This document shows, in pieces, positions 7,103-64,000 of a stretch of 64,000 nucleotides of DNA. Origin of the DNA: Actinosynnema sp. ALI-1.44. Its GTDB lineage: Bacteria; Actinomycetota; Actinomycetes; Mycobacteriales; Pseudonocardiaceae. Under the pieces are notes generated by a model. That model saw only the letters and a program-made list of their open reading frames with translations. It did no database searches and was not told where the DNA came from. The stretch lies in the NCBI RefSeq assembly GCF_001984155.1, contig NZ_MTQO01000054.1:310001-374000 (forward strand). Reading direction: 5' to 3'. A program made the translations under genes and the position numbers. Within the stretch, counting starts at the first letter, position 1. Each line of letters starts with the position of its first letter.

Positions 7103-9646
<2,544 letters not shown>

Positions 9647-10506: not shown

Positions 10507-10548
10507 GCGTTAGTCTGGGTACCGGACTCCGCGTGGATGGGGTGTGCA

Positions 10549-11778: not shown

Positions 11779-11791
11779 CTCGGTCGAGTGA

Positions 11792-11828: not shown

Positions 11829-11864
11829 ATAGCGTCTCCGTGAGTCACGAACGACTTCAGGGAG

Positions 11865-12433: not shown

Positions 12434-12446
12434 TTCTGTCGCCAGA

Positions 12447-12478
12447 CGCCGACGGTGCCGAAAAGTGCACCGTCGGCG
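12447..12478. terminator. Bidirectional hairpin between convergent genes
   Basis: A perfect 12-bp stem (CGCCGACGGTGC at 12447-12458 and its complement at 12467-12478) has an 8-nt loop. It sits between the stop of the XRE gene and the stop of the opposing membrane-protein gene. The position fits termination of both transcripts. Confidence 0.75.
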
Positions 12479-12484
12479 CGTTCG

Positions 12485-48905: not shown

Positions 48906-49823
48906 CTAAGGTTTGTGCATGTGGCCCATGAGCTTGGCGATCCTGACCTGGTGCGAAGGGTGCGTCGCAAGCAGCGCCCGTCGGCCACGCGGGCTGGGGC
49001 CGACCTGGTTCCGCATCCACATCCGCAGGACGTCGACCAAGTCCTGGCCGTAGCCGAGGCGCGCCGCGACTCGGTCCGCCCGCGTTTCCGCGAGCCGACT
49101 GGACCACGCCAGCAGCAACGAGGTCACGGGTAGCAGCAGTAGCCACGGGTTCAGGCTGATCAGGGCGATCAGCAGGAACAGGCCACACAACCCGACCGCC
49201 AGTTCGGCGAACGCGAATCCGAGACGCCCGAGGAACCGGCCCACCGCGTCGAGCACACGCAGGACCAGAGCGGCCAGTCGGACCGACAACCGTGCCGGCA
49301 CCGAGTAGTACCAACCCAGATGGGCCATCCAGGCGTGGCCGGAGAGGTGGTGCCCCAGTTCGTGCGCGAGGATGGCCTCGAGTTGCGGCGGCGGCAGCCG
49401 GAGGGCCGACCGGGTCACCGCGACGATGTGCCCGCCCGCCGCGAGGGCGTTGACGCCGTCGGACTCCTCGATCCAGAGCGTGTAGCGGTCATGGGGCACG
49501 CCGGCGACCCGGCAGACTGACGTCCACGGCCGCAGCAGATGCCCCAATTCGCTCTCGTTCGGCCGCCGCACCCGGAACTTCATCCTGGCGAACACCTTCT
49601 CGGCCGCGGGGAGGAAGATCAACGCACTGGCCAGCAGCCACACGACCGCGATCAGCCACGGCGACCGCGGCATCAGGAAACTGCCGAGCAGACCCATCAC
49701 CATCAGGCTGGACAGCAACTCCGGCAGGAGCAGCACGAAGTCGACAGCAGTCGACGCGTCGACTCGTCGGCTCATCCCGCCACCTCCCGGCGACCGGACG
49801 GGCGGGTTCGGGTCGGAAGTCAT
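48906..49823 (-). CDS. Membrane M48-family zinc metallopeptidase
   Basis: The 305-aa protein has N-terminal membrane helices (about 27-72) and the zinc motif HELGH (H154-E155-x2-H158). More helices follow (about 175-240), and then SRLAETRADRVAARLGYG with the third-ligand Glu. This is the HtpX/Oma1-like topology. It is the last gene of a minus-strand unit and is coupled by 4 bp to a winged-helix gene, itself coupled to a helicase gene. A protease in this context could be an effector or a regulator of membrane proteins; this is inference. Confidence 0.85.
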   Translation of the reverse strand: MTSDPNPPVRSPGGGGMSRRVDASTAVDFVLLLPELLSSLMVMGLLGSFLMPRSPWLIAVVWLLASALIFLPAAEKVFARMKFRVRRPNESELGHLLRPWTSVCRVAGVPHDRYTLWIEESDGVNALAAGGHIVAVTRSALRLPPPQLEAILAHELGHHLSGHAWMAHLGWYYSVPARLSVRLAALVLRVLDAVGRFLGRLGFAFAELAVGLCGLFLLIALISLNPWLLLLPVTSLLLAWSSRLAETRADRVAARLGYGQDLVDVLRMWMRNQVGPSPRGRRALLATHPSHQVRIAKLMGHMHKP

Positions 49824-51043
49824 TCGTCCTCCGCGATCTTCGCCAGCTCGCTGGCCATCCCGGTCTTGCCTGCCGCGGCCGCCATGCGCTGGAGCTCGGG
49901 CAGGCCGACCGAAGCAAGACCGAGTTGGGTGGCGACGCGGGCGAGGTGTGCCCGCACATCCGGTGACGTCCTGCTCCGACGAGCTGTCAGGTAGGCGTCG
50001 ACTCGTTCCAGCAACGCTCTTTCCCTGACGCCGCGCGCCTCGCACGACACGTGGAGAATGTCCTGGTCAAGGACGGCGTAGGACGCCACTTTGCTCAGCC
50101 CCACAGTCCCTGACGGCGCGAACGCGTTCTCCGGCAGGACCACCCGCCAGGTTCCCTGTGCGGTCCGGACAGGGCGGCAGTGCGCCATGCTGTGCCGTTC
50201 GAGCCACCGCGTGATCCGTTTCTTCTGGTCCTCGGGGTCCGCCGCGTGGTACTCGGCGTCCAGCGACGCGGTGATCTCCGGCGAACGGCCCACCAGCTCG
50301 GTGAGATCGGAATCGGCCGTGTCGGCGGCCTGGCTGTAGACCAGGTAGGTCAGGCGTCCCGCGTCCGTCGCCCGCACCACGTACACCGGCAGGTAGACGA
50401 GCTCCTCGCCGAGCGACTCCGGGTTCTCGATGCGGGCCGGGAGGTTGTAGTCGTCCCGTTTCGGGTTGGCCGCGAGCTCCGCCAACGCCTCCTTGCGGAA
50501 TCCGTGCGTGCTGTGCAGCAAGTGGAACGACGGGCCTGCGTTGCCCTTCGCCGAGTTCACTTCCTCCAGTGGCAGCAGGGTCACCGTGGTGGGGTCGTAG
50601 TACTTGCGGCTCAACGGCCAGGAACGGTAGGCGTCGAAGTACATCTTGCGGCGGTCCTGCACCGTCACGAGATAGCAGACGTCGTCCCGCAGGGACGCGC
50701 GGCCGAGGTCGGTCAGCTCGATGGTGTCCCCGCGGAACGTGACGTGCCCGATCGTCGCCAGTACCCGGATCGCCCGGTCGACCAGGGGCCGTTCCAACGA
50801 GAGGAAGCGACTCAGGTCCGCGACGGTGGACACCTGCGCCTCGGCGATCGCGCGTTCCAGGAACTGGTCGATCACCTCGTACGGCCTGCCGTCGGTCGTT
50901 GTCGCTCTGACCTCGACACACCAGACGGGCAGCATGATCGCGAAGATCCGGGTCGGCACGAAGCCGTGCGCGTGGGCGACGTCCTCCAGCACCCGCTGTT
51001 CGGAATACGGAATCAGGCGTTTCCGCCTGGCCACGGAAGTCAT
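49820..51043 (-). CDS. Winged-helix protein of unknown function, helicase-linked
   Basis: The 407-aa soluble protein has two predicted winged-helix units near 60-120 (VADLSRFLSLERPLVDRAIRVLATIGHVTFRGDTIELTDLGRASL). An uncharacterised mixed region and a helical C-terminus follow. No catalytic motif was identified. Both ends overlap neighbours by 4 bp (helicase upstream, M48 peptidase downstream), so the three are made together. The first part resembles DNA- or protein-binding adaptor proteins. The exact role is unknown. Confidence 0.7.
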   Translation of the reverse strand: MTSVARRKRLIPYSEQRVLEDVAHAHGFVPTRIFAIMLPVWCVEVRATTTDGRPYEVIDQFLERAIAEAQVSTVADLSRFLSLERPLVDRAIRVLATIGHVTFRGDTIELTDLGRASLRDDVCYLVTVQDRRKMYFDAYRSWPLSRKYYDPTTVTLLPLEEVNSAKGNAGPSFHLLHSTHGFRKEALAELAANPKRDDYNLPARIENPESLGEELVYLPVYVVRATDAGRLTYLVYSQAADTADSDLTELVGRSPEITASLDAEYHAADPEDQKKRITRWLERHSMAHCRPVRTAQGTWRVVLPENAFAPSGTVGLSKVASYAVLDQDILHVSCEARGVRERALLERVDAYLTARRSRTSPDVRAHLARVATQLGLASVGLPELQRMAAAAGKTGMASELAKIAEDE

Positions 51044-53943
51044 GGGTTCATCCCCCGCTTGGTCAATGTGGACATCAGATCCCGGTATCTCCGCACATCA
51101 CCGTGTTCCCGGATGTGGTCGCGCAGGGCCGTGATCAGCTCGCGGAAGTCGCTGTCGGTCGCTCGCAGCAACATGCCCATGTCACCGACCAGGACCAACT
51201 GGCTCTTCGTCCGGGTGAACGCGACGTTCGCCCTGCGCAGCTCATCGAGGAATCCCACTTTGTTGCCGCGGTTGCTCCGGGTGAATCCGTAGAGGATCAC
51301 GTCCCGCTCCCCGCCCTGGAAGGAGTCCACCGTCCCGACATTGGCCTCGATGACGTCGCCGTCCACGGACAGGGCACGCAGGCTGTCCTTGATCAGGGTG
51401 ACCTGAGCGGTGTACGGCACGATCAACGCCCATTCCGCGCCGCGCCGGTCGTAGTCCGCAGCGAGACGAGACAGCAGCCGGGCCTCGGCGGGATTCTCGA
51501 TGCCGCCGTTGCCCGCGTGGGACTTCCGCTCGGATCGTTCCTGGCTGGGCAGGTGCGTCGTGTCGACGAACGCCAGTGGGCTGGTGAACAGCGGGTCGTC
51601 GTGTGTCCGCCGCACCATCGTCCTGAGTTCGCCGTCGTAGAAGGCGTCGGAGATGAACCGCGCGATCACCTCGGGCATCCGCCGCTGTTGGTTGAGCTGC
51701 TTGACGTGGCTGTCCGGCAGGAACTCGAGCAGCATCTCCAGTGCGCTCTTCGTCAGCAGGTCCCGCACGGGTGCGCCGAAGGAACCCGCCTGGACCTTGA
51801 GCTCCCTGTCCACGAAGGGCGGCAGCTGGCGGTGATCTCCCACCAGGACAGCGCGTTTCGCCCGGACAAGCGGAACCAGGACGTCCGTCACCCCGATCTG
51901 ACCCGCCTCGTCGACGATCGCGATGTCGAAGTCGACTCCGGCGATCTCCTGGCGGGAGGCCGCGCCGATGCACGTCGCGCCGATCACGTCGGCGTACCGG
52001 ATCAGTTCCGGATACAGCTGTTGGACGGATTCGCTGACCGTGTCGTGCCAGTCCCGCAGGAGTTTCTCCCGGGTGGTGAGCAGCGGAATCCTGTCATCCA
52101 GCCACGTTCGCAGCCGCGGCAGGTCTTCCGTCTCGGGGACGGTGTCCATGGTTGCCATGGTCGTTCTGCAGTTGCCTGCGGCCGTGACCGCCGCTGACCG
52201 GTTCTCGGCGACTCGCCGCTGGATGGTTTCCATGACGTGCAGCGCGTTTTGAACCTCCGGAACGTGAACGGTCGCTTGGTGGAGAGCCGCCTCAGCGTCG
52301 CGGCGGTGCCTGCGCGCGGCGGCCAGGCGGGGTTCGGTCCGGGCGATCTCAGCCTGACAGGACAGGATGCGCTTGTCGCGCGACCGGGTCACTGCGCGGA
52401 ACAACGGGCCCAGCACCGGCAACGACGCACGAGTCGCGGACCGCGCTCTGCGTCGGCCGAGGCGCTGCAAGCGTCCGTGTCGGCGGTCCTGGTCATGTTC
52501 GTACTTCCGAACTGTCGTGTCCGCTTCGTCCACAGCGGACTGCGCGGAACCACCGAACGCCCGCCGCAGCCGGGTGAGCTCGCCGTGGGCGGCCTGCTGC
52601 TCCACCTCGGCAGCGGACAGCGCGTCGAGCCGACGGCCGAGTTCGTCGGCCCAGCGGGTCGCCAGATCCAGGTTCTGGTACTTCCGCAGCGCCGCACGGG
52701 TGCTGGACGTGATCTCCTTGCGCAGGTCCACTGCCTGCCGCTCGAGCAGGAACGGCTTTCCCTCCGGCCCGATCTTGCCCTCGTTGCCGATTCGGACGAC
52801 CGTGACCTCTCGCGGCAACTTGGCGAGCACGTTGTCGACCGCGCGGTTGGTGTGCGACGCGATCAGGATCGGGCCCCGGCCGTGGGCGAGCGCGTACGAC
52901 CGCGCGATCTCGCTGATCGTCCGGGTCTTGCCGGTGCCAGGCGGGCCGAGGACCACCATCATGTCCTGGACGCCCAGCGCCCGTTGGAACGCGACCTGCT
53001 GGTCTTCGTCCAGCTTCTCGGCAGGCAGATCGTCTGCCGGTTCGATCGGGCGCACCTTGTGGTCCACCAGGGTGGCCAGCAGCGACTGGTTGCGTGCCTC
53101 ACGGTTGCGGATGGCCGCGATGGCCTCGCGTTGCTTGTCGTACACGATGTTGCTGGACGTCTGTTCGAGTTGTCCTTGCTGCTCCAGGTGGTCCCAGTCG
53201 ACTGGCTCGTCGAAGCGGACGGTCACCTGCTTGTCGTGAACTCGCGTGACTTGACCGCGTTGCTCAGGCTTGCCGCGCAGTTGGACGAAGACACCGCGGT
53301 CCGGCACCGCAGCGCCGACGACCTCGAAGACGTAGATCGGCGACGAGCTGTGCCGTCGCTCACTCGCCGACGTCACCAAGCGGTACGGATAAGTCGGCGC
53401 CGAGATCCGTTGCTGCTCCTGGATCCGCTGCGTCGCGTCGACCAGACCACCGAGCGTGTCGAGGTACGCCGTGTGGTGAGCGCTCAGCGCCGGAGCGGCA
53501 CGTTGGTCGCCTTGCCCCACTTTCAACCTGTCCCAGTGGGTCCGCAGTTCCGGCCACCTGCTCTGGCTCTTCGGCGGGATCTCGCGGATTTCGCGCACCA
53601 CGTGCCATCCGGCCTTGACCAGGAGACACCCACGGGCGAGCCGATCGTGGTCGGACAACCGCAACGGCGACACGTGTCCGATCAGGTATCCGTCGCCGCG
53701 GTTGGTCACGTAGCCCCAGACGACGTACGACCCCAGGTGCAGGCCGATGCTCCAGTCCCTCTGCCGGGACTGGGGTTCTCGGAGGACCACCGGCACACCG
53801 TCCGGGCGCGCGGTCAGGTCGTGCATGATCTGGCCGGTTCCGCCAGGGAGCCCCGGGTTTCCCCGTGCCAGGCGGTTCAGTTGCAGTTCGAGCTTGCCCG
53901 ACGATGCCAGCACGATCCAGCCGGGCAGGTGCACTGTGTACAT
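51040..53943 (-). CDS. SF1 UPF1/DNA2-type helicase (AAA_11/AAA_12) with coiled-coil insert
   Basis: The 967-aa protein has a unique N-terminal region (1-290). Motif I is GPPGTGKT at 333-340, followed by SHTNRAVDN (Ia). A long insert rich in charged helices (about 400-640) precedes motif II VDEAGQ (D678-E679), GDHRQLPP (III), QQRRM (IV), VDSFQGGERD (V) and RRANVAFTRTKSQLVLVGD (VI). All SF1B UPF1-like motifs are intact, so it should be an active 5'-3' nucleic-acid helicase. It follows the SEFIR-pseudokinase gene by 14 bp and is coupled to the winged-helix gene. It is a likely nucleic-acid-processing arm of the conflict system. Confidence 0.9.
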   Translation of the reverse strand: MYTVHLPGWIVLASSGKLELQLNRLARGNPGLPGGTGQIMHDLTARPDGVPVVLREPQSRQRDWSIGLHLGSYVVWGYVTNRGDGYLIGHVSPLRLSDHDRLARGCLLVKAGWHVVREIREIPPKSQSRWPELRTHWDRLKVGQGDQRAAPALSAHHTAYLDTLGGLVDATQRIQEQQRISAPTYPYRLVTSASERRHSSSPIYVFEVVGAAVPDRGVFVQLRGKPEQRGQVTRVHDKQVTVRFDEPVDWDHLEQQGQLEQTSSNIVYDKQREAIAAIRNREARNQSLLATLVDHKVRPIEPADDLPAEKLDEDQQVAFQRALGVQDMMVVLGPPGTGKTRTISEIARSYALAHGRGPILIASHTNRAVDNVLAKLPREVTVVRIGNEGKIGPEGKPFLLERQAVDLRKEITSSTRAALRKYQNLDLATRWADELGRRLDALSAAEVEQQAAHGELTRLRRAFGGSAQSAVDEADTTVRKYEHDQDRRHGRLQRLGRRRARSATRASLPVLGPLFRAVTRSRDKRILSCQAEIARTEPRLAAARRHRRDAEAALHQATVHVPEVQNALHVMETIQRRVAENRSAAVTAAGNCRTTMATMDTVPETEDLPRLRTWLDDRIPLLTTREKLLRDWHDTVSESVQQLYPELIRYADVIGATCIGAASRQEIAGVDFDIAIVDEAGQIGVTDVLVPLVRAKRAVLVGDHRQLPPFVDRELKVQAGSFGAPVRDLLTKSALEMLLEFLPDSHVKQLNQQRRMPEVIARFISDAFYDGELRTMVRRTHDDPLFTSPLAFVDTTHLPSQERSERKSHAGNGGIENPAEARLLSRLAADYDRRGAEWALIVPYTAQVTLIKDSLRALSVDGDVIEANVGTVDSFQGGERDVILYGFTRSNRGNKVGFLDELRRANVAFTRTKSQLVLVGDMGMLLRATDSDFRELITALRDHIREHGDVRRYRDLMSTLTKRGMNP

Positions 53944-53957
53944 CGATGACGTCTCTT

Positions 53958-55397
53958 TCAGCTAACCGGGTCGGAAACCGACAGTGCGTGGGCCAGGTGG
54001 GCCATCCGCGGCCGTTGCCGGGGATCGTCGGCCAACGCCGCGTCCACCGCCTCGCACAGGACACGTGCGGCCGTCGGCGCCGCGCTGCTCAACGGCAGCC
54101 TGAGTTGTTGTCTCTCTGGGACACGACCGGCCAGCAGGTGGTACGTCACCGCCGCCATCTGGTACACATCTGTCCACGGCCCGGCGCGCCCGCTCGTTCG
54201 CCGCCGTTGCTCCGGCGCCTGGTAGTCCCCTTCCGCCTCACCCGGCTGGTACCCCGTGGCGGCCAGCCCCAGGTCCCGCAGCACGACGAGACCGTTGCCC
54301 GCCACAAGGATCGTCTGTGGCGTCAGAGATCGGTGTGCGACACGACTGTCGTGCAGCCGCACCAGCGACCGGCACAGCGACGCCATTCCCTTCAGCAGCC
54401 ACGAAGCCTGGCCGGGATCCAGGGGGCCGCCGACGGTGTCCGGCAGGTACTTGGCCAGCGGTTCGGCCGATCCACCGTTGCCCCAAGTGGTGATCGCCGT
54501 GATCAGGCGGCCGTTCTCGACCAGCGCCACCGGTCGGGGGACACCTGTCGCTCGGGTGTCGGCCGCGAGCCTGTGTTCTGACCGCAGCGCTTCCACGGCT
54601 GCCTTCGAGACCTCGGAGTGCGCTCGGACTTCCAGCTGGCGCATCCACACGTGGTCGTTCACGCCGAGCCGCAACGCGCTGGCCTGACGCGTCACCACGG
54701 ACGGATCGCTCGCGGGCACCTCCTCGAAATGAGCCGAGTGCACCAGGTACTGATCGGAGCCGACGAGGACGTTCGCGCCCGGCGCGAGTACCGCTCCCTC
54801 CGCGACAGTGGGAATGGCCTTGGTCACGACGACCCGCTGCTGCACCGTTCGGCTCGTCGGCCGGAAGACGCCGACCGGCGGCACCGGATACCGGGACTGC
54901 CCGGTGAGGGGCACCAGCAGTGCCTCGGCGCCTTCGACCGTGAACTCCGAGACGACGTACCTGGTCGTCGAGTAGGCGTTGAGGAAGGTGGGGATGTCGT
55001 CGATGGACATGCCGGGCAACACGACCGGCAGCACACGGCGAGTCCACTCGGCCAGGTCGCGCGTGAGCTCGTTGCGGATCATCGCCGCCTCGAACTGGGC
55101 ACCTCTGCCCTCATCCGGCGCGGCGTCGCCGTCCGCTCGCCGCCGGTACTCGGGAGACGCGATCACCAGCACGAAGTCGGCGGTCTTCAACGCCTTCATG
55201 GCCCACAGCGACCAGTCGATGCGGCCCCTGTCGCTCCACAGGTCCAGCGTGATGTGCACGCCGACCTCCTCCTGCAGGAACGACGCGAACCTGTGCACCA
55301 TGTCCTTGTGTTCCTCGGACTCGTGCGAGTACGTGACAAAGACCCGCGGCGCGCGAGCAGGCTCGCTGTCGAGCACATCGGAGCCGTTCACCAACAT
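53958..55397 (-). CDS. SEFIR-pseudokinase fusion protein
   Basis: The protein of about 479 residues has an N-terminal SEFIR domain (residues 18-170: RVFVTYSHESEEHKDMVHRF ... ADFVLVIASPEYRRR). The C-terminal kinase-like domain (about 255-479) has the catalytic HRD replaced by HRS (H355-R356-S357) and the metal-binding Asn replaced by Thr (SLTPQT). DFG is replaced by DLG. The usual VAVK lysine is not evident. It is thus probably a pseudokinase. SEFIR domains interact homotypically, so it can contact the other SEFIR proteins encoded at 61803 and 63684. It heads the unit with the helicase. Confidence 0.85.
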   Translation of the reverse strand: MLVNGSDVLDSEPARAPRVFVTYSHESEEHKDMVHRFASFLQEEVGVHITLDLWSDRGRIDWSLWAMKALKTADFVLVIASPEYRRRADGDAAPDEGRGAQFEAAMIRNELTRDLAEWTRRVLPVVLPGMSIDDIPTFLNAYSTTRYVVSEFTVEGAEALLVPLTGQSRYPVPPVGVFRPTSRTVQQRVVVTKAIPTVAEGAVLAPGANVLVGSDQYLVHSAHFEEVPASDPSVVTRQASALRLGVNDHVWMRQLEVRAHSEVSKAAVEALRSEHRLAADTRATGVPRPVALVENGRLITAITTWGNGGSAEPLAKYLPDTVGGPLDPGQASWLLKGMASLCRSLVRLHDSRVAHRSLTPQTILVAGNGLVVLRDLGLAATGYQPGEAEGDYQAPEQRRRTSGRAGPWTDVYQMAAVTYHLLAGRVPERQQLRLPLSSAAPTAARVLCEAVDAALADDPRQRPRMAHLAHALSVSDPVS

Positions 55398-55505
55398 CAC
55401 CTGTTCCTTTCCTCAGTGGTCTCGTCATCGCAGCGTCCGGCGACGGCGGATGCGGGACACCGAGGCGAAGAGCCGCGCTGCGCGGCGGAGAAATCTCGCA
55501 GAACC

Positions 55506-55534
55506 TGACAGGCCGCTGCGGGCGGCGTCTGTCA
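55506..55534. promoter_or_regulatory. Hairpin/inverted repeat in the leader of the SEFIR-pseudokinase unit
   Basis: TGACAGGCCGC and GCGGC-GT-CTGTCA form an 11-bp stem with a 2-base bulge and a 5-nt loop. It lies about 110 bp upstream of the SEFIR-pseudokinase start, within the 278-bp gap before the unit. On the minus strand the outer arm starts with the consensus -35 hexamer TTGACA. It may be an operator or a leader structure. Confidence 0.45.
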
Positions 55535-55606
55535 ACGAATTTACAGAACAGCGAACTGGCAACAGTGGCAACAGAATGACCAAGGTTGCCCCGCGGTTGT
55601 CCACTG

Positions 55607-55639
55607 CGGGCAGGCCGACGCCCGGCGCCGACCTGCCCG
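55607..55639 (-). terminator. Hairpin after the HerA-type gene
   Basis: CGGGCAGG (55607-55614) and CCTGCCCG (55632-55639) form an 8-bp stem enclosing a GC-rich inner stem. It starts about 37 bp past the stop of the HerA-type gene in its direction of transcription. It suggests that the two minus-strand units are separately transcribed. Confidence 0.6.
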
Positions 55640-55675
55640 TCCGGGACGTTCACGCCACCGGAAAGCCCGCCGCCC

Positions 55676-58600
55676 TCAGCCATCCGCGGCACGGGACCGC
55701 TCGATCACCTCGTCCAGACGCAGCGGGCTCGCGGGGTGGTGGGTCAGGCACAACGGGGTGGCGATCCGGCGGAAGCCGAAAGACTCGCCTGCCACGTAGA
55801 ACTGGGCGCGTTCCAGCCGCGAGATGTCGACGACCGCGCTGCCCTTGGCCCGTGCCATGTGGTTGGCGGCCTGGATCTGGGCGGGGCTGTTGAGGCGTCC
55901 GAAGAACTGGGTCATGGCGTTGCCCACGACCTGGTTGTGCAGTCCCTTCGGCGCCTGGGTCGCGAACAGCAGGCCGAGTCCGTACTTGCGGGCCTGGGAG
56001 GCGAGCACGATGGTGCTGCGCGCGCTCGCCGTCAGAGTCCCTGACGCGGCAAGGGTCTGCGCCTCGTCCATGACCAGGAGGCCACCCAGCGGGCGGTCTC
56101 CGGCCGGGTTGCGCTTGATCCAGGCGAAGAGCTCCATCTGGAGCTGGTTGACGAAGTTCCGCCGCTGCTCCTCCGACGGCAGGCCGACGAAACTGATCAC
56201 CGACACCCTGGCGCGTCTGCCCGCTCGCGGTGTCAGCAGTTCGTCCGGGCCCACCGGGTCGCCACCACCGGCGAACAGCGGGTCGTTGACCATGGCCGCC
56301 TTCAACGCCTCGGCCAGGTCGGCGGCGATCCGCCTGCCGTCGTTGAGAGTGGTCACGCCCTCCGGCAGGTCGGCAAGGGTCTCGACGAGTCCGGGCAGAC
56401 TCCGTGATCCCGTGCGGGCGTAGTGGATGACGGCCTGGCGCAGCACCGCCATCCCGATGTTCGCCTTGACGGTGCTCCCCGTCAGACGGGCCTGCGGTGC
56501 GAGGGTGGCCACCGCGACTTCCACAGCGGCGTTGAACTCGTCGTCGTCATCGAGGACCCCGGCGAAGTCGGGCAACGGCCGGAAGGCCAGCGGCCTGCCG
56601 TGCGCCCGGCCAGGAGTCCAGATCACGACATCGGTCCCGGCGAGGTAGCGTTCCGCCAGTTGGGCGTCGTGCGGACCCCATCCCGTTGGCGGCTCGGGCC
56701 AGGCGTCACCGAGGCGGGCGAGGTCGTTGTTCGGGTCGAGCACGATCGAGGACACTCCCCGCAGCGCGCACTCCTCCACGATCCGCCGCAGCAGGACGGT
56801 CTTCCCGGAACCCGAGCCTGCGAACACCGCGACGTGCTGTCGCAACGCCGACAGGTCGACACGCACCGGGTTTCCGGTGTCGGCAACGCCGAGCACGATC
56901 TCCTCGTCGGACGGCGGTGGATGCGTTTCCTCGTCCGGCCGTGCCACGGCGGTGTCCGGCAGCACCGCGGACAACAGCTGGGACCGGCTGGCCGGCCGCC
57001 GGTCGACCAGCCATTCGTGCAGATCGGTGCTTCCCTTGGCGAACATCTTGTGCAGAGCCCAGAACGCGCGGATGTCAGGCTCGGCCAGCTCGAGCCGTCG
57101 CGCGCCGATGGCTTCGAGTGCCTTGAGCTCTTCCTGGGTCTTCGCGCCGCCGGACCACCTCGTGTTGCGGATGAGGATCAGATGCCGGTTGTCGGCTCCC
57201 TGCCGCAGCCCCGCGGCGGAACTCGCCTTGCGCAAGCGGTTGAGCACGGAGAGGTGGTGCGGGGCCGTGATCGACCGGAACGCCCAGTGCTCTTCCAGAT
57301 CGGACGCCTCGTCGATCGTGCGGGTGAGCCACGCGTGCAGCTCGTTGTTGCCGCTGTTGCCGGTCTCCCGCACCCATTCCATGTTGTCGTCGCCCACTTC
57401 GGTGATCCACCCGCGCAGTGCGGCGGACAGCAGTGCGGGCATCACCTCGTCCTCGTTGTCCTTGGTCACCAGCTTCGCCGGGTCCATAGCCGACCGCAGT
57501 TCGTCGAACTCGCTGTCCAGCTCGGCGAACCGGTCCGACTGGGCCGATGGCGCGGGTGCCGGGCGTGGCGACGGTTCGGTCGCCTTCTCCCGGTCGTCGA
57601 ACGTGGTCAGCTCACGGATGTGGCCCGCGCGCAGGCACATGTCGATGTGGGCGCCGATGCGCTTGAGCAGTTCGCGTGGGGTGTACTCCTCCCACGTTCC
57701 CTCGAACGCCGAGGCCGCCACCGGCCACGTCGGGTGCGGCGGCTCGAACCCGATGGCCTGGTAGACCACGCCGACTCGCTTCTCGACCAGTGCGTAGCCG
57801 AGTCTGGCGTCGGTGATCCGCCCCAGCGTCAGCGACTCCCGGAACCGGTCGGGGACCGAGTCGGTTGCCTTGGCCTTGATTCGTGCCCACGTACCGGTCA
57901 GGCACGCGAGCACCGTCACGGTCCGGCGCGTCACCTCACGCAGCCGCATCAGTCCGTCGGCGATCTGCGCGACGAGCAGGTCCTCTTCGCTGCTGTCGTG
58001 GATCTGCTGGGCGTGCAGGGACGACCGCGCGATCAACGTGTCGAGCTGGTCGACGCCCACCACGATGGGGCCGGTCAACGCGAGCAACCTGGTGATGTCG
58101 TGCACCTGGGTGAGCGCGGGCTTGGGACGCGGGCGGATGCCCCACTTGATCCGCTCGCCCGGCTTCGACTCGTCGAATCCGCCGAGGTAGTAGTCACCCA
58201 CGTAACTCGTCGTGGGATCTTCGCTCGCGTACAGCACGAGGGCCCGTGCCGTGTCACCGCATTCCTTCGCGACCTGCCGGTCGAGTGCGCGCAGACCCGT
58301 AACGAACGCCTCGACGTCCGCCACGGTCATCTTGCGCCCGGCGATGATCTTCTCGGCCGCCTTCGGCTCGACGGCACCCTGCTCGCACACCCGCCGCAGG
58401 AACCGGGTCACCTGTGGTTCACCGGTTTCGTCCGGCCGGGACAGCCCGCGGCGCAGCGCCTCGGCTGTGTTCTCCCAGAACGCGTCCCCCGCGGTGAGGT
58501 CGTCGAGGAAGAAGTACCCACCGGCCTGGTGCACGTGCTTGCGGACGAGGCCGAGTAGGTGCGTCTTGCCGATTCCCTTCTGTCCCTGCATCACCAGGCC

Positions 58601-58771
58601 GATGGGGCTGGGTCCGTCACTCGCCGCCGCGTCGCGGATGCCGACGTCGATGGCCGCCGTCACGTCGGTGTGCAGGCCGTCGACGTGGTAGGGGGAGTCC
58701 CGCCACACGTGGTCGGGTGTGTCCGCCCAGTCGAGGCGGAGCGTCGCCAGTGCCGCCAGTTCGTCGATCAT
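55676..58771 (-). CDS. AAA-HerA double ATPase (putative DNA translocase)
   Basis: The 1031-aa protein is a fusion of two P-loop domains. The N-terminal AAA/ORC-like module has Walker A GQKGIGKT (63-70) and VVGVDQLDTL. The C-terminal HerA/FtsK-like module has Walker A GSGSGKT (652-658), VLDPNNDLARL, Walker B LLVMDEAQ (D902-E903) and a sensor-like LLFATQAPKGL. HerA ATPases form hexamers that translocate DNA and usually partner nucleases or effectors such as NurA, SIR2 or DUF4297. No nuclease is adjacent. Coupling (4-bp overlaps) to the small winged-helix and KGGVGR-ATPase genes suggests a complex with them. Confidence 0.88.
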   Translation of the reverse strand: MIDELAALATLRLDWADTPDHVWRDSPYHVDGLHTDVTAAIDVGIRDAAASDGPSPIGLVMQGQKGIGKTHLLGLVRKHVHQAGGYFFLDDLTAGDAFWENTAEALRRGLSRPDETGEPQVTRFLRRVCEQGAVEPKAAEKIIAGRKMTVADVEAFVTGLRALDRQVAKECGDTARALVLYASEDPTTSYVGDYYLGGFDESKPGERIKWGIRPRPKPALTQVHDITRLLALTGPIVVGVDQLDTLIARSSLHAQQIHDSSEEDLLVAQIADGLMRLREVTRRTVTVLACLTGTWARIKAKATDSVPDRFRESLTLGRITDARLGYALVEKRVGVVYQAIGFEPPHPTWPVAASAFEGTWEEYTPRELLKRIGAHIDMCLRAGHIRELTTFDDREKATEPSPRPAPAPSAQSDRFAELDSEFDELRSAMDPAKLVTKDNEDEVMPALLSAALRGWITEVGDDNMEWVRETGNSGNNELHAWLTRTIDEASDLEEHWAFRSITAPHHLSVLNRLRKASSAAGLRQGADNRHLILIRNTRWSGGAKTQEELKALEAIGARRLELAEPDIRAFWALHKMFAKGSTDLHEWLVDRRPASRSQLLSAVLPDTAVARPDEETHPPPSDEEIVLGVADTGNPVRVDLSALRQHVAVFAGSGSGKTVLLRRIVEECALRGVSSIVLDPNNDLARLGDAWPEPPTGWGPHDAQLAERYLAGTDVVIWTPGRAHGRPLAFRPLPDFAGVLDDDDEFNAAVEVAVATLAPQARLTGSTVKANIGMAVLRQAVIHYARTGSRSLPGLVETLADLPEGVTTLNDGRRIAADLAEALKAAMVNDPLFAGGGDPVGPDELLTPRAGRRARVSVISFVGLPSEEQRRNFVNQLQMELFAWIKRNPAGDRPLGGLLVMDEAQTLAASGTLTASARSTIVLASQARKYGLGLLFATQAPKGLHNQVVGNAMTQFFGRLNSPAQIQAANHMARAKGSAVVDISRLERAQFYVAGESFGFRRIATPLCLTHHPASPLRLDEVIERSRAADG

Positions 58772-59400
58772 GACACCTCGATGGAGATCAGGTGGTTCTC
58801 CTCACCACCGATGCGAATCGCTGCGTCGTGGTCGGCCTCGGTCAGCACCTTCCGGTTGGACTCCGGCACCAGATGCGCCCGTCCGGTGCGACTGAGCTCC
58901 TTGAGCACGGCGTCGACGGCGTCGGCGGGCGCGTCGCCCAGCTTCGGCCGCAGGTCGACGAGCCCCACCCAGCTACCGGGAGATCGGGCGAGGCCGTTGT
59001 AAGCGTCCCGGATGCGCTCCTCGATCCCGTCGGGCGTCAGTTCGGCGTTCGCCGTGAAGATCTCGAAGAGGCGCAGGTTGTCCCGCCGCAGGTATTCGTT
59101 GAACCCGCCGAACACGACGTACGCCGCGGAAGCGAGGCTGCTGCGCGGAGAAGGCGGTGGTGGCGTCTTCCTGGACAGCTCGTCGTCGCACCAGGCCCAC
59201 CCCTGGTCGGTCAACTCGTGGACGTAACACCGTCCTTCCTTGTGGCTGGCGACAAGGCGAAGGTCGTTCAGGCCAATGCGGTCTTTGCCGTCGAGCCGGA
59301 AGTTCGCGATGGCCTCCAATTCCGGGTTGGACACCGCGCGTGCCATCCTCATGAGCACGAGCATCGCTGCGGTCTGCTTGTGTCCCAGTCGGTCGCTCAC
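58768..59400 (-). CDS. Small tandem winged-helix adaptor protein
   Basis: The 210-aa soluble protein has two winged-helix-like units (about 8-75: AAMLVLMRMARAVSNPELEAIANFRLDGKDRIGLNDLRLVASHKEGRCYVHELTDQGWAW; and about 110-200). A Pro-rich linker lies between them. It overlaps the HerA-type gene downstream and the KGGVGR ATPase gene upstream by 4 bp each. It probably links the two ATPases. The family is unassigned. Confidence 0.7.
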   Translation of the reverse strand: MSDRLGHKQTAAMLVLMRMARAVSNPELEAIANFRLDGKDRIGLNDLRLVASHKEGRCYVHELTDQGWAWCDDELSRKTPPPPSPRSSLASAAYVVFGGFNEYLRRDNLRLFEIFTANAELTPDGIEERIRDAYNGLARSPGSWVGLVDLRPKLGDAPADAVDAVLKELSRTGRAHLVPESNRKVLTEADHDAAIRIGGEENHLISIEVS

Positions 59401-61025
59401 TCAAGACCCCTCTTCCAGTCGTCGTCTTCCGATGGCGCGGCAAGCGACCGCACGGCGGACTCGATCGCCGCCCGGACGGTCTCGGGCGCCGTCACGCCTT
59501 GGTCGTGCTCGGCCGCGCCGAACCGCGGCTTGATCGCCAGCGCGAGATCCGCCGCGAGTTCCAGCACGCGTTCGGCCTCCTGCGCCCGGATCGCGGAGAG
59601 CAGCGCGTGCACGATCTCGTCGACGAGTTCCCACAACAGCGGGCGCAGCAGCACGCGAGCGGCTCGCCACAGGATCTCCGCCACGTCGGCCTCGTCGGTG
59701 TCGACGGACGGGGCGGCTCCACCGAGTTGGACCGCCAGGCCGCGCGCCACCTCGACAGGCCCTCGCGACGGACCGAACCGCACATATCGCAGGTTGCCGA
59801 CGTACCCCGGCAGTTCGTTGGGCTTCGCGTCCGGGGTGAGCACCGGGATGACCCGCCGGTCCTGGCCGAGTGTCCGGTGCAGGAACAGGTCGACCTCGGC
59901 GCTCTGCCACCGGCTGACTTCACCGTCGACGATCAGGCACAGGTGCCTCGCGTTGTCCTCGGCCTTGTCCAGCAGCGACCGGTCGCCGGAGAGCGACCGG
60001 TCCGCCCGCACGCCGAGCTCGCCGAGCCGAGCGATCAACTGGTCGGCGAGATCCAAAGTGGATCGCCGAGTGCTGACCCGCACGTCGTAGCTGAACTCGT
60101 GGTTGCCCGATCGGGCAGCGGCCACGTACGCGTCGCGGTTCTCCGCCAGCAGATCGGTGCGGTCGAAGTTGTGCGCGACCACGGCGGCGACCGTCTCCAG
60201 CGCGAACCCGATCTGGTCGGCGCCGGGATTGGCCTCGGAGTGGACCGGGAGCTGCTCGCCGAAGCTCCAGTACGAGACGTAGGGGAGGGTCAGGTGCCGG
60301 GAGATCAGCTCGGTCTCGACCGATTGGTTGAGCCAGTTGTGGTACAGCGTTTCCGTCTCCTTGGCGCAGATGTGCCGCCACTTCTCCGACCGGTCGTACT
60401 CCTCGCGGGTGTCGAACCTGGACAGCACAGGCAGGACTGTGAGCTGCGCGCGGTCGTAGGGCATCCGGTCACGGGCCACGTTCGCACGCTTGGCGATGTC
60501 GACAGCGCCTGCGATGCTCTGCTTGTTCGCCGTGAACAGGACGACGAGACGGTCCGGCAGGTGAGCGGTGCAGATGCTGCCGATGTCCGAGATCCCGGTC
60601 CGGCTGTCGAGCAGGACGTAGTCGTAGTCGGTGATCCACCGCTCACGAAGCCGTTCGAGGTACTCGGCGAACCCCATCTCGTAGAGGACCTGCCAGTCGA
60701 TCTCCTGCACCTGCCGGGTGTAGTCGGTTCCTTCCTTACCCGCGGCGAGGAAGGCGAGTTGGCTGCGGCCCGACAACCTGACTGTGTGGTCGATCGGACG
60801 GGCCAGGCCGGAAAGGAAGTCACTCACCAGGTCCACCACTCCGCCCGCGGGTGGCGTGGCCGTCATCGGCCGGAAGTACTCGTGCAGACCGGGTGCTTCG
60901 AGGTCCCAGTCGACGCAGAGCACGCGGTGACCCCAGCGGGCCAGCAGGACGGCGATGTTGGCCAGTGCGAAGCTCCGGCCGACACCGCCCTTGTACGAGT
61001 AGAAGGTGACAACTGTTCCCGGCAT
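59397..61025 (-). CDS. KGGVGR-variant ParA/MinD-like ATPase with TIR-like domain
   Basis: The 542-aa protein starts with a ParA-type deviant Walker A changed to KGGVGRS (residues 12-18). VDWDLEAPGLH and LLDSRTGISDIG follow. A second region at about 307-425 has a TIR-like alternation (YDVRVSTRRS ... RHLCLIVDGEVSRWQSAEVDLFL ... RRVIPVLTPD). The consensus TIR catalytic Glu is not obvious, so this domain may be scaffolding. The C-terminus (430-542) is helical. The same KGGVGR module occurs in FxSxx-COOH systems and other actinobacterial conflict genes. It starts 3 bp after the TIR gene stop. Confidence 0.85.
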   Translation of the reverse strand: MPGTVVTFYSYKGGVGRSFALANIAVLLARWGHRVLCVDWDLEAPGLHEYFRPMTATPPAGGVVDLVSDFLSGLARPIDHTVRLSGRSQLAFLAAGKEGTDYTRQVQEIDWQVLYEMGFAEYLERLRERWITDYDYVLLDSRTGISDIGSICTAHLPDRLVVLFTANKQSIAGAVDIAKRANVARDRMPYDRAQLTVLPVLSRFDTREEYDRSEKWRHICAKETETLYHNWLNQSVETELISRHLTLPYVSYWSFGEQLPVHSEANPGADQIGFALETVAAVVAHNFDRTDLLAENRDAYVAAARSGNHEFSYDVRVSTRRSTLDLADQLIARLGELGVRADRSLSGDRSLLDKAEDNARHLCLIVDGEVSRWQSAEVDLFLHRTLGQDRRVIPVLTPDAKPNELPGYVGNLRYVRFGPSRGPVEVARGLAVQLGGAAPSVDTDEADVAEILWRAARVLLRPLLWELVDEIVHALLSAIRAQEAERVLELAADLALAIKPRFGAAEHDQGVTAPETVRAAIESAVRSLAAPSEDDDWKRGLE

Positions 61026-61028
61026 ACG

Positions 61029-61622
61029 TCAGAACCTCGGCAGGCGTGGTGTTCTGGGCGGGTCAGGAGGTGGCTCGTGCACCGGCCAGTCAGGGCGCCA
61101 TTCGGGCGCCTGGTCGATGAGGTCTTTCAGCTCAACCGCGATCCGTTCGACCTCGCGGTGAAAGCCCAGGTACTCGATCGTGTCCTGGAACTGCGGATAC
61201 GGCAGGTTCCACGTCTTGAGGTCCTGCATGCGACGTTCGTGCGCGTAGGACGGGAAGTTCTCCGAATCGCAGAAGATCACCGGGTAGATCAACCCCTGTG
61301 GCCTGCCCGGTGTCGCCATGGCGGCGATCTCCTCCCGCCGCACCATGGAATGCCACTCGGCCAGGCACCACTCGTTGAGGAAGTACTTGGGCGAACAGAC
61401 CGGCACGAGGATCCGGGTGCGCTGCAAGGCGTTGCGCAGTTCCAAGGGCCAGTTGGCTCCTGTGGGGACGTTCTCGTCGAAGAAGATCTTCGCCTGGTGA
61501 TCGAGCTGGTCGTCCAGCAACTCGGAGAGTCGCGGGTAGAAGTGCGTTCGCACCCATGCGGGCACTGTGGTGCCGTTGCGTTGATAGCTGATGAACACGT
61601 CGTACTCGTACACGCGTGTCAT
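61029..61622 (-). CDS. TIR-domain protein, possible NADase
   Basis: The 197-aa protein has a TIR domain (YDVFISYQRN at 7-16, FFDENVPTGANW, PVCSPKYFLNEWCLAEW). The catalytic-type Glu is E89 in the WCLAE motif. TIR proteins of this type cleave NAD or make signalling nucleotides in plant and bacterial immunity. The C-terminal tail is Pro-rich. It heads the first minus-strand unit. The AGGAG site is only 2 bp from the ATG at 61622, so GTG 61613 is an alternative start. The activity is predicted, not shown. Confidence 0.88.
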   Translation of the reverse strand: MTRVYEYDVFISYQRNGTTVPAWVRTHFYPRLSELLDDQLDHQAKIFFDENVPTGANWPLELRNALQRTRILVPVCSPKYFLNEWCLAEWHSMVRREEIAAMATPGRPQGLIYPVIFCDSENFPSYAHERRMQDLKTWNLPYPQFQDTIEYLGFHREVERIAVELKDLIDQAPEWRPDWPVHEPPPDPPRTPRLPRF

Positions 61623-61633
61623 CGCTCCTTATG

Positions 61634-61687
61634 CCTGTGTCACGGGGTTCGCCAGATCGTAAGTCGGCGTGGCGGAGGTGATACAGG
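61634..61687. promoter_or_regulatory. Divergent control region with CCTGTGTCAC / GTGATACAGG inverted repeat
   Basis: The 180-bp gap between the divergent TIR and SEFIR-NPCBM genes holds CCTGTGTCAC (61634-61643) and GTGATACAGG (61678-61687). They match as an inverted repeat at 9 of 10 positions. The gap also holds GGTCACC at 61719-61725 and GGTGACC at 61769-61775. GGTGACC-type sequence recurs upstream of the Crp gene, so the Crp/Fnr protein may bind here. Assignment is by motif only. Confidence 0.45.
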
Positions 61688-61802
61688 CCCACGACAAGTC
61701 AAAAGGCAGTCAGTTGTTGGTCACCGGGTGCCGGGCGATCGGACGTCTTGAAAGCTGGTCCCCATCCAGGTGACCATAACTCGATCAACACAAGGAGTGT
61801 CG

Positions 61803-62762
61803 ATGTCCGACCGTGCCGCGCCACGGGTCTTCGTCAGCTATGCGAACGATTCACCCGAACACACGGCACAAGTACGGCGGTTCGCCGAGTTCCTGCGGAC
61901 CCAGGTGGGTTTGGACGCGCACCTGGACATCTGGTACCGCGACCGTCGCCGCGACTGGTCGGTCTGGGCCACCGACCACCTGACCAAAGCGGAGTTCGTC
62001 CTCGTCGTCGCGTCACCGCAGTACAAGCTCCAGGCCGAAGGGGAGGCGGCACCGGACGAGAGCGGGAGGGCGGAGCTCGAAGCGGCGATCCTCCGGGACA
62101 ATCTGGCCAAGAACCTCCGCGACGGGACCGAGCGCATCCTGCCGGTGGTCCTGCCGGGGCGATCGGTGCGGGAGATCCCCGCCTTCCTCAACCCCCACTC
62201 CGCGACCAGCTTCCGCGTCGACGAGTTCACCGTCGGGGGGATCTCGGACCTGCTGGCGGCGATCACAGGGCAGGGGCAGTATCCGTTGCCCGAGCTCGGG
62301 CAGTGGCCAGGCGATGCCGGTGCCGACGAGCGCCCGGTGACGACGCTGCTCGCGGGGATGCGCTGGCTGACCAGCAGTCCGGGTCTCCGGCCGGGCAGCG
62401 CGAAGATCAACGGTGTGCGGTACGACAACAGCGTCGTCTCCCGGCACCGGCCGTCCACAGGGGAACCACGGGTTTTCGTCGAGGTGGACCTCGACCGGGC
62501 CTACCGGCGGATGACGTCGGTTGCCGGAGTCCTCGACGACGCGAGCGAGCCGTTCCAGGTCGGGCACTTCGTGATCAGCGTCGACGCCCACGTGCGATGG
62601 CAGCGGAAGGCCGCGCTGGGCAAACCGGTGGCCGTCGACCTGGACATCGCGGGCGCGCGGACGCTGCGCCTGGAGATGCACCGGGGTGCCGCCAGGAGCT
62701 CGGCGGTGCCGACGGCGACAAGACTGTCCGAACTGGCCTGGGGAAACCCATGCCTGTCGTAG
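61803..62762 (+). CDS. SEFIR-NPCBM fusion protein
   Basis: The 319-aa protein has an N-terminal SEFIR domain (residues 8-165: RVFVSYANDSPEHTAQVRRF ... EFVLVVASPQYK). The C-terminal NPCBM-like beta domain (about 195-315) has KINGVRYDNSVVSR, FVISVDAHVRWQ and AGARTLRLEMH. NPCBM modules bind glycans in secreted enzymes. Here there is no signal peptide, so the domain may have been re-used as an intracellular sensor. The ATG at 61803 has AAGGAG 5 bp upstream. It faces the TIR gene across a 180-bp divergent region. Confidence 0.8.
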   Translation: MSDRAAPRVFVSYANDSPEHTAQVRRFAEFLRTQVGLDAHLDIWYRDRRRDWSVWATDHLTKAEFVLVVASPQYKLQAEGEAAPDESGRAELEAAILRDNLAKNLRDGTERILPVVLPGRSVREIPAFLNPHSATSFRVDEFTVGGISDLLAAITGQGQYPLPELGQWPGDAGADERPVTTLLAGMRWLTSSPGLRPGSAKINGVRYDNSVVSRHRPSTGEPRVFVEVDLDRAYRRMTSVAGVLDDASEPFQVGHFVISVDAHVRWQRKAALGKPVAVDLDIAGARTLRLEMHRGAARSSAVPTATRLSELAWGNPCLS

Positions 62763-62875
62763 CAGGTTGGTACGACATTCGTTGTGGTACAGGGAAGTTC
62801 GTTGCCGCTTATCATGCGAGCCGAATTTCGATCTACCACTCGACGGCGGGGAGTGACCTCGTGGCGCAGTACCCG

Positions 62876-62941
62876 CCGGTATCGATACCGGTCGGCCGTC
62901 GCAGCCGGACATACTCCACCGCTGTCACCCGTTCTGGTGAC
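62876..62941. promoter_or_regulatory. Palindromes upstream of the Crp/Fnr gene
   Basis: CCGGTATCGATACCGG (62876-62891) is a perfect 16-bp palindrome. GTCACC-N6-GGTGAC (62924-62941) is a second, with an extra C making GGTGACC. Both lie in the 219-bp gap before the Crp/Fnr start. The second has the geometry of a Crp-family operator and shares its half-site with the region upstream of the SEFIR-NPCBM gene. Autoregulation is likely but unproven. Confidence 0.55.
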
Positions 62942-62981
62942 CACCCCCCTTGATGTCGGAAATGAACAGGAGTCGTTTTCC

Positions 62982-63668
62982 GTGGCCGGGAACAAGTTCA
63001 ACAGCTCGGGCGCAGGATGGCCGCAACTGAGTCCCGCCGGGCAGCGGCGACTCAGCATCGCGGGAACGCACCGCCGGTGGGCGCGCGGTGACGATCTCAT
63101 CCGTGAAGCGGAGCCGGCGTGTGGTGTTCTGCTGATCAAGCGCGGCCGGGTGAAGATAAGCTCCGCCACGCCCTGCGGCAGGCACGTGATCATGGCTATC
63201 CGCGGGCCGGGTGACCTGCTGGGGGAATCCGCCGCGATCGACGGCAGGAGCCGGTCCGCGACTGTCACGGCGCTCACCGACGTGGACGCGATCTCCCTCA
63301 CCGGCAAGGAGTTCACCGAACTGCTGCGGACCGCGCCCGATGTCGTCTTCGAGCTCTTGGTCATGCTGACCGGGCGGCTGCGCGAGTCGACCAAGCGGCG
63401 GCTGGAGTTGAGCGTGTACGATGTGCCCACGCGCACAGCACGATGGTTGCTGGACGCGGCCGCACAGGGCGAACCGATCAACGGCGGCCCTGGCTACGCG
63501 ATCCGGCTGACGCAAACCGAACTGGCGGACGCGGTGGGGGCGTCGCGAGTGTCCGTCGCCAACGCATTGCGCGTGTGGCGCGAGGAAGAAGTCATCGCCA
63601 CGAGTCGCGCTGTGTTCCGTGTACTGAAGCCGGAAGTCCTCCGCGGATGGGCTTACCACGACCATTAA
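62982..63668 (+). CDS. Crp/Fnr-family transcriptional regulator
   Basis: This protein of about 228 residues has a cyclic-nucleotide-binding-type beta-roll (residues 30-135: DDLIREAEPACGVLLIKRGRVKISS ... GPGDLLGESAAIDGRSRSATV). The C-terminal HTH_Crp domain contains LTQTELADAVGASRVSVANALRVWREEEVI. No Fe-S cysteine cluster is visible, so an Fnr-type oxygen sensor is unlikely; a nucleotide or other ligand is possible. The GTG start has CAGGAG 9-10 bp upstream and gives a normal Crp length. It sits between two SEFIR genes and is probably their regulator. Confidence 0.88.
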   Translation: MAGNKFNSSGAGWPQLSPAGQRRLSIAGTHRRWARGDDLIREAEPACGVLLIKRGRVKISSATPCGRHVIMAIRGPGDLLGESAAIDGRSRSATVTALTDVDAISLTGKEFTELLRTAPDVVFELLVMLTGRLRESTKRRLELSVYDVPTRTARWLLDAAAQGEPINGGPGYAIRLTQTELADAVGASRVSVANALRVWREEEVIATSRAVFRVLKPEVLRGWAYHDH

Positions 63669-63683
63669 GGACCAGCGAGAGCC

Positions 63684-64000
63684 ATGTCTCAGCCGACCCG
63701 CGTGTTCGTCACCTACACCCACGATTCCGAGGAACACAAGAACCAGGTGCTCGCACTGGCCGCGTTCCTGCGGAGTCACGGCCTCGATGTCCAACTGGAC
63801 GCGTGGGACAGCTACAAACGCAGGGACTGGTACGAATGGGGTCAACGGCAGATCATGCTCGCCGACTTCATCCTCGTCGTGGTGTCGAAGCAGTACCGGC
63901 GGGTGGGCGACGGTGAGGTCGAGTCGATGGAGAACCGGGGTGCGCAGGCCGAGGTCGCCGCGCTCAGGGAGGTGATGCAGTACGACAGGCCACAGTGGAT
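63684..64000 (+). CDS. SEFIR-domain protein (cut by window edge)
   Basis: The first 105 residues form a SEFIR domain (RVFVTYTHDSEEHKNQVLAL ... ADFILVVVSKQYRRVGDG). It closely resembles the SEFIR half of the protein at 53958-55397. The downstream part is outside the window, so a fused pseudokinase or other effector cannot be seen. It starts 15 bp after the Crp/Fnr gene. It is probably in the same transcript. Confidence 0.88.
   Translation, partial: MSQPTRVFVTYTHDSEEHKNQVLALAAFLRSHGLDVQLDAWDSYKRRDWYEWGQRQIMLADFILVVVSKQYRRVGDGEVESMENRGAQAEVAALREVMQYDRPQW

Follow-up and report, generated by a model that had tools for sequence, protein, structure and literature searches.

A 64,000-nucleotide stretch of the 11.7 Mb genome of Actinosynnema sp. 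ALI-1.44 (contig NZ_MTQO01000054.1, positions 310,001 to 374,000; hereafter the window) ends in a dense group of genes, from 48906 to 64000, that a preliminary description had taken for one undescribed multi-component conflict system. Our comparisons of gene content and sequence argue instead, with a probability of about 0.7, for a pair of separable modular systems of the defence type, one of them lying within the other, which combine fixed cores with replaceable effectors. Module A (55676-61622, plus the divergent gene P0009 at 61803) has a winged-helix protein and a HerA-type translocase as its core; the module B operon (48906-55397) is centred on a helicase and an MkoB-like protein. The features of the locus, in window coordinates, are:

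48906..49823, minus strand: P0001, M48-family membrane zinc protease, 305 aa, HELGHH motif (Pfam PF01435, 7.6e-18)
49820..51043, minus strand: P0002, MkoB-like protein, module B core (PADLOC MkoB 1.4e-15, profile positions 8-247 of 610)
51040..53943, minus strand: P0003, SF1 helicase of the UPF1/SMUBP2 type, module B core (AAA_11/AAA_12; PADLOC MkoA 4e-110)
53958..55397, minus strand: P0004, SEFIR-pseudokinase, putative module B effector/adaptor (SEFIR 1.9e-16; Pkinase 2.6e-7, below cut-off)
55676..58771, minus strand: P0005, AAA+ / middle domain / HerA translocase, module A core (DUF87; AAA_16 below cut-off; structure model and Foldseek)
58768..59400, minus strand: P0006, tandem winged-helix protein, module A core (structure model; no family match)
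59397..61025, minus strand: P0007, KGGVGR variant ATPase with TIR-like and CATASP-like parts, module A partner (NF047398, 1.1e-46)
61029..61622, minus strand: P0008, TIR protein, module A effector candidate (TIR_2/TIR)
61698..61723, minus strand: three TGAC units with an 11-bp period upstream of P0008
61803..62762, plus strand: P0009, SEFIR-NPCBM protein, divergent partner of module A (SEFIR 4.1e-13, NPCBM 5.9e-6)
62982..63668, plus strand: P0010, Crp/Fnr-type regulator adjoining P0011 (cNMP_binding, HTH_Crp_2)
63684..64000 (window end), plus strand: P0011, SEFIR protein, putative displaced divergent partner of module B

All eight genes on the minus strand, and the SEFIR, Crp and SEFIR genes on the plus strand, were confirmed in the window. 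The minus-strand set, together with P0009, has the bias in GC content across codon positions that is typical of genes in this GC-rich genome. The packing of the locus is as tight as previously described. Within module A, P0008 and P0007 are separated by 3 bp, while P0007-P0006 and P0006-P0005 each overlap by 4 bp. Within module B, P0004 and P0003 are 14 bp apart, P0003 and P0002 overlap by 4 bp, and P0002 overlaps the M48 gene by 4 bp (ATGA) when the latter starts at 49823, which is the most likely start; the longer open reading frame reaching 50045 is unlikely. A gap of about 275 bp between P0005 and P0004 divides the two operons. P0011 runs past the window end, and the full gene (L005:3684-4982) encodes 432 aa including PF08357. 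The domains claimed earlier are supported by profile scores: TIR (P0008), DUF87/HerA, SF1 helicase, SEFIR, M48, NPCBM and Crp exceeded their Pfam cut-offs, and the KGGVGR match of P0007 reached 159.5 bits against an NCBIfam cut-off of 90 (NF047398). For the proposed pseudokinase P0004, Pkinase scored 30.7 bits versus a Pfam cut-off of 31.7, a score just below threshold that fits pseudokinase status, and the catalytic HRD Asp is missing in all 14 aligned family members. A multi-component conflict-type locus with SEFIR/TIR signalling and a pseudokinase is supported, and no single named system in the Pfam, PADLOC and NCBIfam libraries covers the full set.

The idea of a single unit did not survive the co-location test that had been proposed for it, which instead split the genes into modules A and B. 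Module A loci were taken as the best 80 of at least 333 relatives from a genome scan. Within up to 10 kb on each side (15 of the 80 loci are shorter than 20 kb), these contained no MkoB, no M48 protease and no helicase-MkoB pair. Conversely, no module A protein was matched in 35 module B loci, 16 of which had been picked by an MkoB match (L161-L176) and 19 by a match to the kinase part (L179-L197). Co-location thus led us to reject the one-system reading. Among 13 other genomes of the class with an MkoB match, seven also encode module A (G095, G178, G237, G289, G307, G332, G380); there the two modules lie on other contigs or, in two single-contig genomes, 3.4-5.7 Mb apart. G005 likewise has modules A and B on separate contigs. 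They stand side by side only here and, with B as remnants, in the sister genome G001. A 292-aa gene of one module A locus (L091) was flagged by P0004 at 29% identity.

How the two modules are interleaved could be read from their SEFIR proteins. P0011 is 36-37% identical over residues 6-428 to the divergent SEFIR proteins of four module B loci (L179-L182), and its C-terminal part matched, beyond this genome, only these among the loci compared. The C-terminal part of P0009, in the same comparison, matched only module A loci. Therefore, module A and P0009 sit between the module B operon and its SEFIR partner; that is, P0011 is the predicted partner of module B, and A is nested inside B. In G001, all five module A genes are present at 50-75% identity. 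Of MkoB, helicase, pseudokinase and M48, only MkoB was matched across 28.7 kb (L036 and L198), lacking its first 46 residues, and the P0011 homologue is shortened to 219 aa. Judged by these remnants, module B has decayed in the sister genome and module A is intact. A Crp homologue (58%) adjoins the P0011 remnant in G001; no regular partnership of the Crp regulator with either module was seen.

These data bear on the alternative that A and B cooperate as a single integrated system, cross-wired by SEFIR contacts. The operons share a strand and are separated by a short gap, their SEFIR domains are related (41-49% identical), and the common ancestor of this genome and G001 already carried both modules together. 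However, MkoB is absent from the 80 A loci and A proteins from the 35 B loci, seven other genomes keep both modules apart, G005 carries them on different contigs, and in G001 an intact A stands beside a decayed B. We therefore regard an integrated system as unlikely.

Just past the window end lie genes for a protein with SEFIR as its C-terminal domain (L005:5344-6483, minus strand), an HTH-NB-ARC-TPR protein (6592-8781, minus strand) and a TIR-TPR protein (10259-12811, minus strand). Thus, the SEFIR/TIR-rich island continues. About 6 kb to the left of module B, a NACHT-domain gene with weak leucine-rich-repeat matches is found (42079-43128, minus strand). Of possible island signs, the window shows neither a tRNA nor, at a resolution of 2 kb, any clear step in composition, integrases not having been searched for; its sole Rfam match at gathering score is an Actino-pnp RNA (4706-4770, plus strand).

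We then characterized the core of module A. The AlphaFold2 (AF2) model of P0005 (mean pLDDT 86, pTM 0.59) places a middle domain between an AAA+ domain and a HerA domain. Foldseek matched it to HerA-NurA (9.8e-12), SIR2-HerA, DUF4297-HerA and the DndH C-domain (7es4), and Pfam to DUF87 (2.4e-10). The N-terminal Walker A motif is invariant in 50 of 50 aligned family members, and the predicted order of strands and helices in residues ~440-560 is the one feature that suggests a possible inactive restriction endonuclease (REase)-like middle domain. P0006 was modelled as two winged-helix-like units (mean pLDDT 92). PadR regulators head its Foldseek matches, where the lowest E value is 6e-3 and no match reaches E<=0.001, and scans of Pfam, PADLOC and NCBIfam profiles gave no family match.

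When the class was searched with P0005, 46 of 394 genomes gave a match at E<=1e-20; of 60 relatives, counting this genome itself, 16 have a homologue of full or nearly full length. Among 17 loci from relatives, 16 have P0006 immediately upstream of P0005, the remaining one (L052) being a HerA fragment alone; seven of the 16 also carry TIR and KGGVGR genes, and three the divergent SEFIR-NPCBM gene. In the larger set, the winged-helix and HerA genes adjoin in 74 of 78 analysable loci (L119 and L137 were left out for want of an intact HerA call). Plasmid copies exist as well: matches came from 3 of 72,556 records, although one of these, labelled a plasmid, is 11.9 Mb long and looks like a chromosome. 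A Tsukamurella plasmid (L178) carries DUF559, winged-helix and DUF87 genes beside VapBC, and on this record the whole group is flanked by two blocks of ribosomal-protein genes. An alphaproteobacterial Methylobacterium plasmid (L177) encodes the winged-helix-HerA pair with a DUF559-like gene, the latter judged by eye.

The partners of this core vary. Among the 78 loci, we found TIR plus KGGVGR in 16, KGGVGR alone in one, a DUF559 nuclease in 20, one or both members of a PDC-M02/DUF4365 pair in seven, AbiU/AIPR in six, STAND-like/TPR proteins in six and trypsin-NACHT-WD40 with Trypco1 in five. Core-adjacent copies prevailed over copies elsewhere in the same loci (DUF559 20 versus 0, KGGVGR 18 versus 0, TIR 16 versus 2, AbiU 6 versus 0); apart from the two TIR matches, none of the partner families was seen away from the core. 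In a HerA tree of 78 rows (77 loci with a HerA protein longer than 900 aa, plus the window), TIR+KGGVGR forms a single clade of 18 rows with support 100, and AbiU a single clade as well. The tree indicates that module A partner sets were replaced several times across HerA clades. Within the TIR+KGGVGR type, the KGGVGR motif is kept in 18 of 18 aligned P0007-type proteins, whose TIR_2 and CATASP matches stay below the Pfam cut-offs in P0007 itself, and the TIR Glu (WC[LMV][AS]E) in 16 of 16 aligned P0008-type proteins. The divergent SEFIR-NPCBM gene occurs in nine of the 80 loci (eight without L085, whose TIR gene is called in two pieces), all in one supported Pseudonocardiaceae subclade of the HerA tree.

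A pair of TG[AT]C units with an 11-bp period precedes the TIR operon in 10 of 17 regions, compared to 11 of 563 control upstream regions (at 61698-61723 in the window, and ahead of the TIR gene in L081-L090). The aligned pair reads TGAC-TGAC in the window and L085 and TGTC-TGTC in most others, with mixed pairs also in L081 and L084. In two AbiU loci (L136, L154), pPIWI-RE genes lie upstream of the winged-helix-HerA pair and AbiU downstream, placing several defence-type sets side by side. In G005, a large TcdB-midN/RHS-like gene is located downstream of module A (L037:12477-20000, minus strand).

Several observations weigh against two separate systems with freely replaceable effectors. No recognised partner was present at 17 of the 78 module A loci, and the adjacency comparison is descriptive and partly circular because neighbouring genes had served to define the partner families. 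Partner changes on the HerA tree numbered only 7 among rows with a recognised partner (minimum 5 for six states), or 15 when 'none recognised' counts as a state (shuffled mean 48). Partner sets thus mostly track HerA clades, and replacement is therefore occasional rather than free. The AAA_16 match of P0005 (2e-6) remained below the Pfam cut-off. Two A loci show isolated weak B-type matches, L127 to the helicase (37%) and L139 to the kinase part (35%), and with both operons on one strand across the 275-bp gap, cooperation in this one genome is possible.

Two systems can still be reconciled with the view that module A belongs to the HerA/FtsK capture systems, with TIR replacing the nuclease, and we give this affiliation slightly less than an even chance. 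Such systems are predicted to contain Orc/CDC6, inactive and active REases and a winged helix-turn-helix (wHTH) protein (accessible part of PMC10853773). Module A shares with that description the HerA translocase (DUF87 2.4e-10), an AAA+ ATPase (possibly of the Orc/CDC6 family, AAA_16 being below its cut-off) and a winged-helix partner, the wHTH being represented by the P0006 model with its weak PadR matches, and nuclease effectors (DUF559/DUF4365) appear in sister loci. The Foldseek match to 7es4 points the same way, as do TIR fusions, among other domains, that the same part of PMC10853773 describes as frequent in Orc/CDC6 relatives outside HerA association. In contrast to the capture systems as described there, AAA+ and HerA form one polypeptide here, the effector set is TIR plus KGGVGR with a divergent SEFIR-NPCBM protein, and sister clades put other effectors on the same winged-helix-HerA pair. 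No active REase was detected at this locus (no Pfam nuclease in P0001-P0010), and KGGVGR, AbiU, DUF559 and trypsin-NACHT-WD40 partners are not given in the accessible part of PMC10853773. The SIR2-HerA (Nezha) and DUF4297-HerA systems likewise pair a HerA translocase with a destructive effector (accessible part of PMC11291478), and P0005 matches both by Foldseek. Yet Pfam found neither SIR2 nor DUF4297 beside HerA, the adjacent genes being TIR and KGGVGR, and, set against that source, module A has an extra AAA+ domain, a tandem winged-helix subunit and a KGGVGR adaptor.

Module B also recurs. P0003 matched SMUBP2, DNA2 and UPF1 among PDB sequences, with MkoA as its best PADLOC match, and P0002 had no Pfam domain match. 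In all 16 loci found through P0002, pseudokinase sequence precedes the helicase, and 18 of the 19 loci found through the kinase part contain helicase and MkoB. Altogether, helicase and MkoB co-occur in 34 of 35 loci, each of the 34 with pseudokinase sequence beside them; the sole exception, L187, lacks both. The kinase gene is uncalled in L162, L164, L184, L194 and L196, where its presence was taken from tblastn or genome matches, and the MkoB match of L176 spans two frames. P0004 itself matched 55 of 200 genomes of the family, many by SEFIR only. With the single protein P0002 as query, matches came from 4 genomes in a set of 60 and 14 in a set of 388, this genome counted in each; both figures are possibly lower bounds. 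A phylum search of 396 genomes with the P0002 family alignment (A5) matched the window alone; we take this as low sensitivity rather than absence, since scoring was limited to four candidates in each genome and many loci emerged from the subsequent P0004 search.

The domain preceding the pseudokinase differs among the 34 loci. An LmuA-type nuclease is present in 12 (10 by hidden Markov model (HMM), 2 by similarity), SEFIR in eight (6 by HMM, 2 from the P0004 genome search), TIR in two and a nucleoside phosphorylase (PNP) in one. The domain is absent or short in seven (L188-L193, L195), and four were called by eye or left unassigned (L162, L194, L196, L197), with a TIR in L197 and a DUF4145-like domain in L162 among the calls by eye. 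Several effector-less pseudokinases in L188-L195 carry, by eye, a VHGxVxQAGxIxGxVHxH-like stretch near their start. M48 was found in 3 of 35 other module B loci, and the protease is by its distribution an optional, occasional accessory of the module.

A second, divergent SEFIR gene accompanies the SEFIR-pseudokinase in 8 of 8 loci, versus 0 of 27 others (counted when on the other strand and no more than 4 kb away from where the helicase starts; an MkoB-side SEFIR gene in L190 falls outside). Of 20 aligned SEFIR domains, 18 have the candidate catalytic Glu. Both domains that lack it (L183 and L185, the latter from a gene call that starts late) are pseudokinase-bound, and their separate partners retain the Glu. 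This suggests that adaptor and enzyme roles are split between pseudokinase-bound and separate SEFIR proteins.

Module B might also be a Mokosh type I system with a separately encoded kinase, which again would agree with two systems; we hold this tentatively, at somewhat below even odds. Both share an MkoA-type helicase (4e-110) beside an MkoB-like protein (1.4e-15) and a kinase-like domain, with the pseudokinase giving a further match, to the N-terminus of MkoA (4.3e-13). However, MkoA joins kinase and helicase in one polypeptide, whereas here they are separate genes (P0004, P0003), the pseudokinase state is conserved in 14 of 14 members, and varied death effectors (SEFIR, TIR, PNP, LmuA-type) are fused to it; the SEFIR form has a divergent SEFIR partner besides. 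P0002 is encoded next to the helicase, yet its match to the MkoB profile covers only positions 8-247 of 610. A PLD nuclease domain is a feature of Mokosh type I, and the Pfam scan found none in P0002. To our knowledge, the effector fusions to the pseudokinase are new.

Other known systems cover smaller parts of the locus. The bSEFIR model (PADLOC PDLC03957) matched P0004 at 2e-28, and PF08357 occurs in P0004, P0009 and P0011; unlike bSEFIR, paired SEFIR proteins here accompany a helicase core, with a further SEFIR protein on a HerA core. On the NAD depletion that marks bSEFIR during infection, the sequences offer the candidate catalytic Glu kept in 18 of 20 domains. P0007 matched the PADLOC candidate PDC-M28B (1.9e-28), and PDC-M02A/B occur in sister loci, while P0005 and P0006 matched none of the PDC-M28 and PDC-M02 models. 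P0008 resembles FxsC (63.8 bits), but the cut-off is 130 bits and no other Fxs model was matched by the window proteins scanned, so that FxSxx-COOH membership was rejected. The full MADS set is MAD1-8; with matches to mad6 and mad8 only among the same proteins, this assignment was rejected as well. Inactive MinD/ParA-like domains are reported from related conflict systems in the accessible part of PMC7159879, and they fit the KGGVGR protein P0007. Neither gene set is described in the accessible parts of PMC7159879, PMC12839542, PMC11291487, PMC12278908 and PMC10286901, and no system with either set is named in open-access PubMed Central titles and abstract openings, a range outside which subscription papers and supplements lie. 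By sequence, modules A and B resemble known kinds of system (HerA/FtsK capture, Mokosh) but lack defining features of each.

A regulatory or developmental rather than defensive role would accommodate the Crp/Fnr regulator, the winged-helix protein and the carbohydrate-binding NPCBM domain. We consider it very unlikely, given the patchy distribution (46 of 394 class genomes), the plasmid copy beside VapBC, the abortive-infection and candidate defence families among the partners, and the change of effectors.

Gene sets, order, conservation, partner change, motifs and separability were observed directly; sensing, NAD depletion, SEFIR-SEFIR contact and a defence function of both modules are what we infer in the following model. 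Its steps are proposed because of the named families, the DUF4297-HerA precedent (accessible part of PMC11291478) and a review line that SEFIR depletes NAD (accessible part of PMC12926258). In module A, the HerA-type translocase with its N-terminal AAA+ domain and the tandem winged-helix protein would form a DNA-engaging core on invading DNA, which would signal via the KGGVGR-TIR-CATASP adaptor to a replaceable effector, here TIR. P0008 is a probable NADase that would destroy NAD, and P0009 may act as sensor or regulator. Independently, the UPF1-type helicase and MkoB-like core of module B would sense aberrant nucleic acid, and the pseudokinase would relay the signal to its fused effector, releasing or clustering SEFIR with P0011. 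The M48 protease, an optional membrane effector, may damage the membrane.

More broadly, module B may represent a class in which helicase/MkoB sensing is coupled through a pseudokinase adaptor to death domains (SEFIR, TIR, nucleoside phosphorylase, LmuA-type nuclease). In its SEFIR form, the second SEFIR protein would be the catalytic one, in some lineages following loss of the catalytic Glu from the copy bound to the pseudokinase, and module A would be a parallel winged-helix/HerA plug-in platform that landed in B. We put this generalization forward as conjecture, with the odds leaning against it.

Varied effectors on a fixed core are known for CBASS and Avs. Here the same principle is seen with two other cores, HerA/winged-helix and helicase/pseudokinase. 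If true, a pseudokinase that serves a bacterial defence locus as an adaptor carrying effectors would put the kinase fold to a new use; we know of no earlier case in bacterial defence. Finally, the sister genome G001, with B decayed and A intact, is a natural deletion that marks where the locus divides for experiments.

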